Source: Bacteroidales bacterium (GTDB lineage Bacteria > Bacteroidota > Bacteroidia > Bacteroidales > UBA12170). From it: a stretch of 64,000 nucleotides of DNA. Positions 4,214 through 46,190 of the stretch are shown here, in pieces. Made by a program: the position numbers and the translations under genes. Every line of letters starts with the position of its first letter. Positions within the stretch are counted from its first letter, which is position 1. Below the pieces are notes generated by a model. The model saw only the letters and a program-made list of their open reading frames with translations. It made no database searches and was not told the origin of the DNA. The DNA lies in the NCBI GenBank assembly GCA_021158405.1, contig JAGGUP010000029.1, forward strand, positions 1 to 64,000. The letters run 5' to 3'.

Positions 4214-4238
4214 AACCAACTAATTACCTAACTAAAAA

Positions 4239-5168
4239 TCATTTTTTATTGATATATTCTAGTGCACTTAAGGCCGCTATAGTTCCATCAGAAACCGCAG
4301 TTGTTATTTGTCGATAACGTTTTGCCAAGGAATCTCCGGCTGCAAAAATGCCTTCAATATTGGTTTGCATAGCTGCATCGACGAGTATTTCTTTGTAGTC
4401 GTTGAGTTTTACAGCTGTATTGTGTAATATTTCTGTTTGGGCTTCGTAACCGATAAAAATAAAAACTCCATTAATTTCTTTTGTTTCTTTTTTACCGGTA
4501 GGAATATGCTCTATTTCTACTGCTTGTAAACCGGCTTCACCTTTAAATTCGTTGATCTGTGATTCCATAATGAAATCTATTTTTTCATTCGCTTTGACTT
4601 CGTCAATAGCATGTTGAAAAGCCTGGAAATGATCAAATTGATGAACAATAGTTACTTTGCTAGCATAATTCGTTAAAGAAACGGCTTCTTCAAGAGCAGA
4701 GTTTCCTCCGCCGACAACAATAATTTCTTTGCCTGTAAAAAAGTCCCCATCGCAGGTTGCACAATAGGAAATCCCCATGCCTTTGAATTGTTTTTCTCCT
4801 TTAACTCCGAGCATTCTGGAACGACCTCCGGTAGCTAAAATTATAGCTTTAGCTGTATAAATCTCGCCATTAGCTATGCGAATGCTTTTCCGATTGCTTT
4901 CCAAAACCAATTCCTCTACTTTAGCATTGGATTTAATTGTACAACCGAAATTTTCCGCCTGCTTTTTCATTGTGTTGGCAAGCATAAATCCGCTGGTACT
5001 TTCAATGCCCGGGTAATTTGCAATTTCATGAGTAAGAATGGTTTGGCCGCCAATCATACTACTATCGATAATCAAGGCTTTAGCTTTGCCTCTTGCAAGA
5101 TACATACCGGCTGTTAAACCTGCAGGTCCGCCGCCGAGAATAATAACATCAAAGTTTGTATTTTCCAT
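4239..5168 (-). CDS. Thioredoxin reductase-like flavoprotein
   Basis: 309 aa; FAD motif GGGPAGLTAGMY, redox motif CATCDGDFF, C-terminal GIFAAGD. The canonical NADPH motif HRRxxxR is not seen (VHQFDHFQAF). Confidence 0.88.
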   Translation of the reverse strand: MENTNFDVIILGGGPAGLTAGMYLARGKAKALIIDSSMIGGQTILTHEIANYPGIESTSGFMLANTMKKQAENFGCTIKSNAKVEELVLESNRKSIRIANGEIYTAKAIILATGGRSRMLGVKGEKQFKGMGISYCATCDGDFFTGKEIIVVGGGNSALEEAVSLTNYASKVTIVHQFDHFQAFQHAIDEVKANEKIDFIMESQINEFKGEAGLQAVEIEHIPTGKKETKEINGVFIFIGYEAQTEILHNTAVKLNDYKEILVDAAMQTNIEGIFAAGDSLAKRYRQITTAVSDGTIAALSALEYINKK

Positions 5169-15978: not shown

Positions 15979-16264
15979 TGGATTGTACACATTTAAAAAA
16001 GAAAAAATGAAAACTAGTTGAATCGGGAGAGAATAATAATCAAGAAATCCAGCATTCAAATAGGCCACGACCAAAGGCACCGTATAAACGGAGGAACATA
16101 GCGATATTTGATTGTTTAATCATAGATTCAAAAATACATATCATTTTGATGCAAAAGTAAATGAATAGTAATTAATTTTATTATCTCGCAAAGGCCAAGA
16201 ATGAGCAAACGCTAAGAAAAGCGAGAAATTGATCTGCTTTTTGTATTTTCGCAAAAAATCAAGG

Positions 16265-16867
16265 ATGAAATTATTAGAAAATTATAAAGCCAAACTAAAG
16301 AAGAAATCAAAAGGAAGTTGGGCAAGCGATATCGTATTTCTATTGCTGATTATAGCCTTGATTTTTCCTACAACCAGAACGCCTATCATCGTTTTTATTA
16401 AAAGAGCAACTCTGTTTGGCCCTTCTGTTTCGGAAAAAGATAATTTTGGAAAATTAAATCAAAATGATCTTCAATGGCAGCTGATAAATGATCAGAATCA
16501 AACTGTTCGACTTGCTGACTTGAATGACAAACCTATTTTTATTAATTTCTGGGCAACTTGGTGTGCAACTTGTCTAGCCGAAATGCCATCCATAGAAAAG
16601 CTTTATATGGATTATAAAGACGATGTCTATTTTGTAATTGCTACTTATGAAGACAGAGCTTTAATAGACTCATTTTTGCAAAAACAAGGATTGAACTTCC
16701 CTGTTTATCGATACCAAACAAAAGAACCCAAATTGTTACAGTCGAAAACAATCCCCGCCACATTTATTTTAAACACTAAAGCACAAATTATTGTAAGTGA
16801 AAAAGGAACAAGCAATTGGAACAGTAAAAGTGTAAGGGAATTGTTGAATAAGTTAATAGAGCCCTGA
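16265..16867 (+). CDS. Membrane-anchored TlpA/ResA-like thioredoxin-fold protein
   Basis: N-terminal TM segment; FINFWATWCATCLAEMPS; start assigned at MKLLENY. Confidence 0.85.
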   Translation: MKLLENYKAKLKKKSKGSWASDIVFLLLIIALIFPTTRTPIIVFIKRATLFGPSVSEKDNFGKLNQNDLQWQLINDQNQTVRLADLNDKPIFINFWATWCATCLAEMPSIEKLYMDYKDDVYFVIATYEDRALIDSFLQKQGLNFPVYRYQTKEPKLLQSKTIPATFILNTKAQIIVSEKGTSNWNSKSVRELLNKLIEP

Positions 16868-16892
16868 CAGGGTTTGAAACCCTGTCAGGGCT
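16860..16892. repeat. 33-nt perfect hairpin, convergent-gene hairpin family copy 1
   Basis: AGCCCTGACAGGGTT-TGA-AACCCTGTCAGGGCT (15-3-15); overlaps the stop codon of the upstream gene. Confidence 0.9.
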
Positions 16893-16902
16893 GAATGGCC
16901 GT

Positions 16903-17946
16903 TTAATAAACTTCGTTTTTCTTTCTTTTCACCAACTCTTTGGTCGAAAGCAAACCACAAGCTGCAAAGATATCTTCACCTCTGGATGCTCTTATTGTGG
17001 TAACAATTCCTTTTCTCTTTAGTCCGTCCTGAAACCTCAAGATAGTTTCATTGGAAGAGCTTTCCAAAGGAGTTCCCGGGATAGCATGAAAACGAATTAG
17101 ATTAATCCGGCATTTTATCCCGTTTAAGATTCGTGCAAGTTCATTGATATGCTTTTGCTGATCGTTTACGCCTTTAAACATAATGTATTCGAAAGATACA
17201 CGACGTTGGCCGCCAAACTCAAAGGCACGAATCTCATCCAAAAGTTTTGGAAGATGATAAACACTTTCAATCGGCATAAGATTTTTACGTTCTTCTTCAA
17301 AAGGGCTATGCAGACTTACTGCCAAATTTGCTTTAGAAAGAACTAAAAATCTTTTCATTGCGGGGATTATTCCTATGGTAGAAACCGTAATTCTTTTCGG
17401 ACTCCAGGCCAAACCATAATCAGCCGTTAATATTTCGATGCTTTTCAACACCTCATCCAAATTATCTAAAGGCTCACCCATGCCCATATAAACCACATTA
17501 GTCAATTTTTCAAAATCCGGTAAATTAAAAATCTGATTCAAGATCTCGCCTGCAGTTAAATTTCCCTGAAAACCTTGTTTCCCAGTCATGCAAAACAAAC
17601 ATCCCATTTTACACCCTACTTGTGAGGAAACACAAAGCGTTGCTCTTTCGCCTTCGGGAATAAAAGCCGTTTCAATAAACTGATTCCCTTTTAAAGGAAA
17701 TAAATATTTCTTGGTGCCATCAATCGATTCTTGAACACTTGTTGAATCCGTAAAACTTAGTTTGTATTTTTCTGCAAGTTTTTCCCGAGTTGGTTTCGAC
17801 AAATTACGCATTTCTTCAAAAGAATGAATACGTTTTTTATACATCCAGTCGGTTAACTGTTTCGCAACAAATTTTTGAAATCCCAATTTCACTACAATTT
17901 CCTGAAGTTCAAAAAGGGTTTTTCCAAATAAATTCTCTTTTATCAT
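16903..17946 (-). CDS. rlmN: 23S rRNA (adenine-2503-C2)-methyltransferase
   Basis: SSQVGCKMGCLFCMTGKQGFQGNL, YMGMGEPLDN; start set at MIKENLFGK (17946). Confidence 0.95.
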   Translation of the reverse strand: MIKENLFGKTLFELQEIVVKLGFQKFVAKQLTDWMYKKRIHSFEEMRNLSKPTREKLAEKYKLSFTDSTSVQESIDGTKKYLFPLKGNQFIETAFIPEGERATLCVSSQVGCKMGCLFCMTGKQGFQGNLTAGEILNQIFNLPDFEKLTNVVYMGMGEPLDNLDEVLKSIEILTADYGLAWSPKRITVSTIGIIPAMKRFLVLSKANLAVSLHSPFEEERKNLMPIESVYHLPKLLDEIRAFEFGGQRRVSFEYIMFKGVNDQQKHINELARILNGIKCRINLIRFHAIPGTPLESSSNETILRFQDGLKRKGIVTTIRASRGEDIFAACGLLSTKELVKRKKNEVY

Positions 17947-17947
17947 T

Positions 17948-18613
17948 TTAAAAATATATTTCGGCAATTATTTGATTATACGGCACTCCTCTTTTAATTA
18001 ACAGATCGCGAACATCGACAACCAATTGAGAGCTTCCACAGATATAATAATTAATATCCATGGGTAAGTTTTCAATATGTAAAAGATATTCCGTCAAACG
18101 ACCCGCATAAATTCCCTCCTCGTTTAAAACGGAAGAACATCGAATATAATTATCCTTTAAAACCAACTTAAACGCATCCGCAAAATAAAAAGACTCCAAT
18201 TTTCGACCTCCGTGGATAAGTGTCTTTCCTTCAGCCATGCCAACTTCTAACATTGAAATAAACGGAGCAATTCCGGTTCCGGCGGCAATCCACCAATCTA
18301 ATCCACTACCGCCATAAAAAGAGCCAAATGGACGAGAAATATAAAGCGTATCTCCACTTTTTAATTCAGCTAAACGTGGTGTTAGAAATCCTTCAGATTG
18401 AATATCAAAAAGAATACGATATTCCTTTTCAAAATTACCACTTGCAATACTATATAAACGAGGATCTTCAGCCTTGTTTAAGGTAATGGCTAACATTTGC
18501 CCTGGACGAAAATCTTCTGTACGTGGAAAAGTGAGTGTAAAGACTCCCGGAGCAATTTTCTGAATAGTGTTAAAATTTGTTTTGAAAAGCGGTATTTTAC
18601 CTGATTTATTCAC
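17948..18613 (-). CDS. Ferredoxin-NADP reductase-like FAD/NAD(P)-binding protein
   Basis: RLYSIAS flavin motif, GTGIAPFISML, YICGSSQLVVDV. Start proposed at GTG 18613 because the ORF-track start (18679) overlaps a terminator and lies upstream of a TACTTTTG element. Confidence 0.8.
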   Translation of the reverse strand: MNKSGKIPLFKTNFNTIQKIAPGVFTLTFPRTEDFRPGQMLAITLNKAEDPRLYSIASGNFEKEYRILFDIQSEGFLTPRLAELKSGDTLYISRPFGSFYGGSGLDWWIAAGTGIAPFISMLEVGMAEGKTLIHGGRKLESFYFADAFKLVLKDNYIRCSSVLNEEGIYAGRLTEYLLHIENLPMDINYYICGSSQLVVDVRDLLIKRGVPYNQIIAEIYF

Positions 18614-29151: not shown

Positions 29152-29188
29152 TTAGCCCTACGAGGGTTTAAAACTCTCGTAGGGCTAA
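29152..29188. repeat. 37-nt hairpin, convergent-gene hairpin family copy 2
   Basis: TTAGCCCTACGAGGGTTT-A-AAACTCTCGTAGGGCTAA (18-1-18, one G.U). Confidence 0.88.
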
Positions 29189-40817: not shown

Positions 40818-40850
40818 AACCCTGTCAGGTTTTAGAAACCTGACAGGGTT
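40818..40850. repeat. 33-nt perfect hairpin, convergent-gene hairpin family copy 3
   Basis: AACCCTGTCAGGTTT-TAG-AAACCTGACAGGGTT (15-3-15). Confidence 0.9.
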
Positions 40851-46157: not shown

Positions 46158-46190
46158 AAAATAGCGGCAACTTAGGTTGCCGCTATTTTT
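46158..46190 (+). terminator. Intrinsic terminator
   Basis: AAAATAGCGGCAA-cttagg-TTGCCGCTATTTTT. Confidence 0.8.

Follow-up and report, generated by a model that had tools for sequence, protein, structure and literature searches.

The 33-bp palindrome at positions 16860–16892 of the window (the whole 64,000-nucleotide stretch of Bacteroidales DNA analysed) is a dispersed, non-autonomous REP-type repeat, a reading to which we assign a probability of about 0.88. Its cognate enzyme would be a Bacteroidota RAYT, a TnpA_REP-like HuH/Tyr single-stranded DNA transposase. The identification follows from hairpins found at the ends of RAYT genes in related genomes and from the covariation between hairpins and RAYT lineage. 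The broad description of a REP, a short (20–40 bp), dispersed, mainly extragenic and multicopy sequence, applies to this element, which is 33 bp long and present in low copy number.

The palindrome, which has no strand, reads AGCCCTGACAGGGTT-TGA-AACCCTGTCAGGGCT and belongs to the GAC/GTC subtype. The left 15-nt unit, AGCCCT-GAC-AGGGTT (16860–16874, plus strand), is an inverted repeat by itself, with a 6-3-6 layout and one G·T wobble. It is followed by a 3-nt loop, TGA (16875–16877, plus strand), which is not the stop codon in use, and by the right unit, AACCCT-GTC-AGGGCT (16878–16892, plus strand), the reverse complement of the left one. The two arms are 100% complementary and allow a 15-3-15 or a 16-1-16 reading, with a computed RNA fold of −28.4 kcal/mol. 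The window contains three perfect hairpins whose arms are 14 nt or longer, whereas 12 first-order Markov simulations each yielded none. A perfect 14-4-14 hairpin at 46158–46189, AAAATAGCGGCAAC-TTAG-GTTGCCGCTATTTT, lies outside the 33-bp family and has a terminator-like look.

Each family member is exactly 33 bp long: a pair of 15-nt units, complementary to each other, encloses 3 nt, and each unit is a 6-3-6 inverted repeat of the form ARMCCT-NNN-AGGKYT. The genome contains at least 13 copies. Genome-wide searches returned six CCTGWCAGG hairpins and ten copies of CCTNNNAGG-N9-CCTNNNAGG, versus zero for the reversed pattern in both cases. Two other copies lie in the window, both strandless and between convergent genes: one of the GTC/GAC subtype at 40818–40850, and one of the ACG/CGT subtype, with one mismatched pair, at 29154–29186. 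The ACG/CGT triplet also occurs in copies on contigs C76 and C138. The preliminary description was thus accurate in the sequence and coordinates of the perfect 15-3-15 palindrome and in regarding it as one of a family rather than unique. It had also related the palindrome to hairpins at 40818 and 29152, and both belong to the same 33-bp family; the former shares the GAC/GTC triplet, and the latter carries ACG/CGT, with its 33-bp core at 29154–29186.

In a sample of the order comprising 393 genomes from 206 genera, 77 genomes, from 58 genera, carry the GAC subtype, compared with one genome for the reversed-pattern control. Across 145 copies, conservation ends exactly 3 nt outside CCT..AGG, which sets the element length at 33 bp. 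Among 95 distinct copies, each of the 15 outer-to-inner pairs is retained by 79–100%, and positions 3 and 13 within the 15-nt unit pair by either A-T (118) or C-G (53); in these counts the search pattern itself dictates the CCT/AGG positions and, in part, the triplets, and leaves the remaining positions free. Arms of RAYT-linked hairpins are also self-complementary (4.26 pairs versus 2.76 in shuffled arms), including those that are not of the CCTNNNAGG type (4.02 versus 2.73 pairs). One high-copy genome, G036, has 29 copies yet no A1-clade RAYT match. Literature searches with CCTGTCAGG and CCTGACAGG returned unrelated papers only, and an Rfam search gave a single meaningless sub-threshold match. 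In the congener G004, many of the copies are no more than 300 nt from the end of a contig, which makes the copy numbers obtained from these assemblies lower bounds.

The enzyme belongs to a clade of ~200-aa HuH/Tyr transposases of the RAYT/TnpA_REP fold that bear family-type hairpins at their gene ends. Members in G057 and G171, about 194–200 aa long and with weak Y1_Tnp matches, are flanked on both sides by such hairpins, and a two-sequence profile search found clade relatives in 151 of 393 genomes. A hairpin lies inside the gene or within 300 nt of it at 72 of 90 clade loci, compared with 1 of 20 other IS200-like loci used as a control. Hairpins are present on both sides at 29 of the 90 loci and inside the gene at 31, often in frame and mostly 220–290 nt from the RAYT start, between the HuH and Tyr motifs. 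Near RAYT genes there are 2.16 hairpins/kb; far flanks have 0.20/kb, and a 428-kb sample of this genome chosen partly around known copies has 0.11/kb, so that the density at the genes is 11–20 times background. Divergence of hairpin arms grows with RAYT divergence (Mantel r 0.375, 0 of 5000 permutations), and hairpin and RAYT presence are associated over 393 genomes (OR 6.7, p 1.6e-12), shared ancestry being only partly removed in both tests. The top-scoring PF01797 genes of high-copy genomes are mostly hairpin-free and IS200-like, and it is the weak-scoring ~200-aa members that carry the hairpins.

NHFH is present in 73 of 84 clade sequences and YI...P in 74 of 84, and the enzyme carries NHFH and YIHxNP. 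It matches PF01797 above the cut-off and NF047646 (REP_Tyr_transpos) with an E-value of 2.8e-17; its two scores, 62.9 and 50.7 bits, are below the curated cut-off of 80. The best PDB match to its predicted fold is 4ER8, the structure of a RAYT in complex with a REP hairpin (probability 1.00; model from six sequences, mean pLDDT 63.5, core 72–83); the match came from the fold search alone, as a PDB search by sequence returned none. Cognate RAYTs are flanked by the same repeat, of the GAC type in other families and of the ACG type within the genus (G001 contig C174, G007 contig C1 and G009 contig C233). Identity between G001 and G007 is 97.0% in the RAYT block, compared with 85.7% in the flanking genes, an excess that fits recent exchange or stronger constraint. 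A half-REP array that varies between these two loci (L187 and L188) lies downstream of the block.

Apart from the RAYT gene of contig C163, the genome studied here (G000) has a single member of the A1 clade, a frame-broken remnant (contig C184, 2527–3043), and no intact cognate RAYT of the clade was found in the assembly, which is 96.3% complete. The early suggestion of a REP/RAYT system is thus upheld for the relatives, which have the cognate clade, and for this genome extends only to the remnant. No clear hairpin was found at the remnant's ends; upstream of it, ACTCTGTCTGGT resembles, by eye only, a decayed half-REP, and a GAC-type REP lies close to this junction in G009. With no intact enzyme and no clear hairpin at the remnant, it is relatives that tie RAYT to the GAC subtype of this genome. 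Orphan copies are compatible with REP identity, and since the remnant is frame-broken, the 16860–16892 copy is probably a fossil that has lost its mobility. Two other RAYTs of the genome were considered and rejected as the cognate enzyme, as each has its own, different hairpins. The gene on contig C163 (L010:1068–2200) is accompanied by GATACGATGACT..AGTCATCGTATC hairpins, one of which lies within the gene in frame, and further copies of that type lie at L096:128, L099:94 and L110:15812. The RAYT-like gene on contig C132 (L009:1171–1935) has hairpins AAGCTTAATCT / CGGCCTAATCT on both sides.

The palindrome sits between two convergent genes. On the plus strand, a TlpA/ResA-like thiol-disulfide oxidoreductase gene (16265–16867; ATG at 16265, listed as an ORF from TTG at 16229) encodes a protein with Redoxin/AhpC-TSA (TlpA/ResA-like) domain matches. 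On the minus strand, rlmN (16903–17967), whose product matches the RlmN family TIGR00048, ends at 16903. The TGA stop of the TlpA-like gene (16865–16867, plus strand) is supplied by the left arm of the palindrome. These findings agree with the preliminary description, which placed the stop inside the hairpin and the hairpin between converging genes. In the comparison of orthologous loci with and without the element that it proposed, the junction holds a hairpin in G004 and none in four other congeners. The G004 hairpin reads AGACCTAACAGGTCT-CAA-AGACCTGTTAGGTCT, differing in four pairs with both sides changed, and the TlpA-like ortholog there ends with its own TAG, 6 nt before the hairpin. In this genome, the stop codon may have come to be provided by the REP copy together with a loss of ~14 nt beside it. 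No clean empty site flanked by near-identical sequence was found, the hairpin-free congeners being diverged at this junction; another candidate empty site, on G009 contig C92 compared with contig C52 here, was rejected as too diverged.

Several other sites are shared. The site of the 29154 copy is occupied in G001 and G007, with the ACG subtype in all three genomes, and that of the copy on contig C174 of this genome is common to G009. At four common junctions, TlpA-rlmN included, GAC in this genome corresponds to AAC in G004; the other three are the copies on contigs C54, C12 and C81 (C12 with one GAT). In G004, each of the 16 spacer-9 copies is of the AAC type and none is CCTGWCAGG, although six of the 16 fall in one locus with tandem arrays. 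AAC-type REPs occur in G004 in ~169- and 61-bp tandem arrays (L240:1–620 and 4220–4708, L251:1510–1754), and those of L240 flank two lipoprotein-like ORFs.

The GAC and AAC copies could stem from separate insertions into shared hot-spot junctions, an explanation with a nearly even chance of being right, which competes with concerted change and leaves REP identity untouched. It accounts for the match between each genome's copies and its resident type, 16 of 16 in G004, and for left boundaries at TlpA-rlmN that differ by 14 nt between the two genomes. Against it, the copy on C54 and its G004 counterpart on C159 agree in place and in inner sequence (TTTCAAAA), and the right boundaries of the copies on C12 and G004 C125 coincide. 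The difference in triplet at common junctions suggests concerted change, and the C54/C159 pair points to descent with such change, the other pairs being less clean. We offer, as a tentative proposal at somewhat below even odds, that the family is a distinct REP class, a palindrome of palindromes recognised via its central triplet, and that the dispersed copies within one genome switch type together, as if RAYT or inter-copy conversion rewrote the set upon a shift in specificity. This comparison of different types at the same sites makes REP persistence testable, as insertion versus rewriting of existing copies, and bears on why RAYTs are kept.

As a REP, the element would be recognised by the RAYT in folded, single-stranded form, either as one 15-bp hairpin or as two 6-bp mini-hairpins. 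Cutting and rejoining, probably at replication forks, would spread copies, and these would persist where they are least harmful, mostly just past stops between convergent genes. Twelve copies of this genome could be placed, all intergenic; 8 of 11 junctions are convergent and none divergent, versus 53 of 351 background junctions (15%, p 3e-5), so position relative to convergent 3′ ends is not random, as had been proposed. In relatives from the genus, each of the 12 copies that could be classed lies at a convergent junction, and with seven further independent genus junctions the count becomes 15 of 18 (p 2e-10). Order-wide, with one copy per genome, 7 are convergent, 10 tandem, 1 divergent and 6 inside ORFs, a weaker bias (7 of 18 intergenic, p 0.012). 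These tests used a simple ORF method for genes, left contig-end copies unclassed and assumed independent junctions. Convergent placement is strongly favoured but not obligatory.

This bias, the −28.4 kcal/mol fold, and the sites and pairing kept between species would also be expected of a bidirectional terminator or mRNA 3′-end stabiliser selected by the host at convergent junctions, with no mobile repeat involved. We consider this explanation improbable. No T run follows the stem on either strand, leaving no terminator-like site, so the palindrome is not a canonical intrinsic terminator, and ordinary T-run hairpin terminators exist in the same genome. The hairpin is absent at the junction in four congeners, copies also lie between tandem genes and inside ORFs, and hairpins cluster at or in RAYT genes and track RAYT lineage. 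A REP copy may still have such activity as a secondary role: an RNA hairpin of about −28 kcal/mol would form at the 3′ ends of both converging transcripts and could stabilise or delimit them. The binding site of a dimeric protein, whether an operator or a chromosome-organising site, would fit the perfect double two-fold symmetry and constant 33-bp length but is very improbable, given central triplets that vary freely with pairing kept, placement at 3′ ends and not promoters with divergent regions nearly avoided, and the link to RAYT genes.

Among known systems, the closest parallel is the E. coli-type REP with its TnpA_REP/RAYT (PDB 4ER8), likewise a set of short dispersed palindromes with a REP-flanked HuH/Tyr gene. 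REPs of that type, with GTAG feet, are reported to supply stop codons to neighbouring ORFs (PMC3733652), and both this property and placement at 3′ ends recur here. Unlike them, the 33-bp family lacks a GTRG foot, is symmetric and near-perfect with arms that are themselves inverted repeats, and numbers tens of copies or fewer, not hundreds. GT[AG]G stands at the stem foot in 6 of 159 copies versus 11 of 159 control windows, placing the family outside the GTAG/GTRG superfamily. The CGTC superfamily does not accommodate it either: a CGTC end tag occurs in 1 of 159 copies versus 6 of 159 controls ([TC]GTC, 7 versus 12 of 159). CGTC-tagged palindromic repeats are also short and reported from Bacteroidetes too (PMC3733652), whereas the present family has no CGTC at one end, a longer stem and a symmetric form.

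Two subclasses of TnpA_Y1 (PMC6006769) resemble the clade. Subclass 2.6, mostly from Bacteroidetes, has the HuH motif NH[LIV]H and "atypical secondary structures" of weaker folding, which published scans found by hand only (PMC6006769). The absence of GT[AG]G, the structures present beside the gene and again elsewhere in the genome, and the Bacteroidetes hosts are shared; the strong hairpins and NHFH (73/84) found here are not. Subclass 2.4, Bacteroidetes included, has NH[IFV]H, the Y motif YIxNNP and GT[AG]G-footed REPs. The clade shares NH[IFV]H and in-frame REPs between the HuH and Tyr motifs, unlike GT[AG]G feet, which are absent, and YIxNNP, which only part of the clade has. Agreement with either subclass, compared by published motifs, thus appears partial. 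The family gives Bacteroidota REPs a concrete sequence definition tied to an enzyme clade, which itself offers dozens of natural enzyme–hairpin pairs. REPs as a kind are known; the doubly symmetric form and the matched same-site change in a related species are little described.
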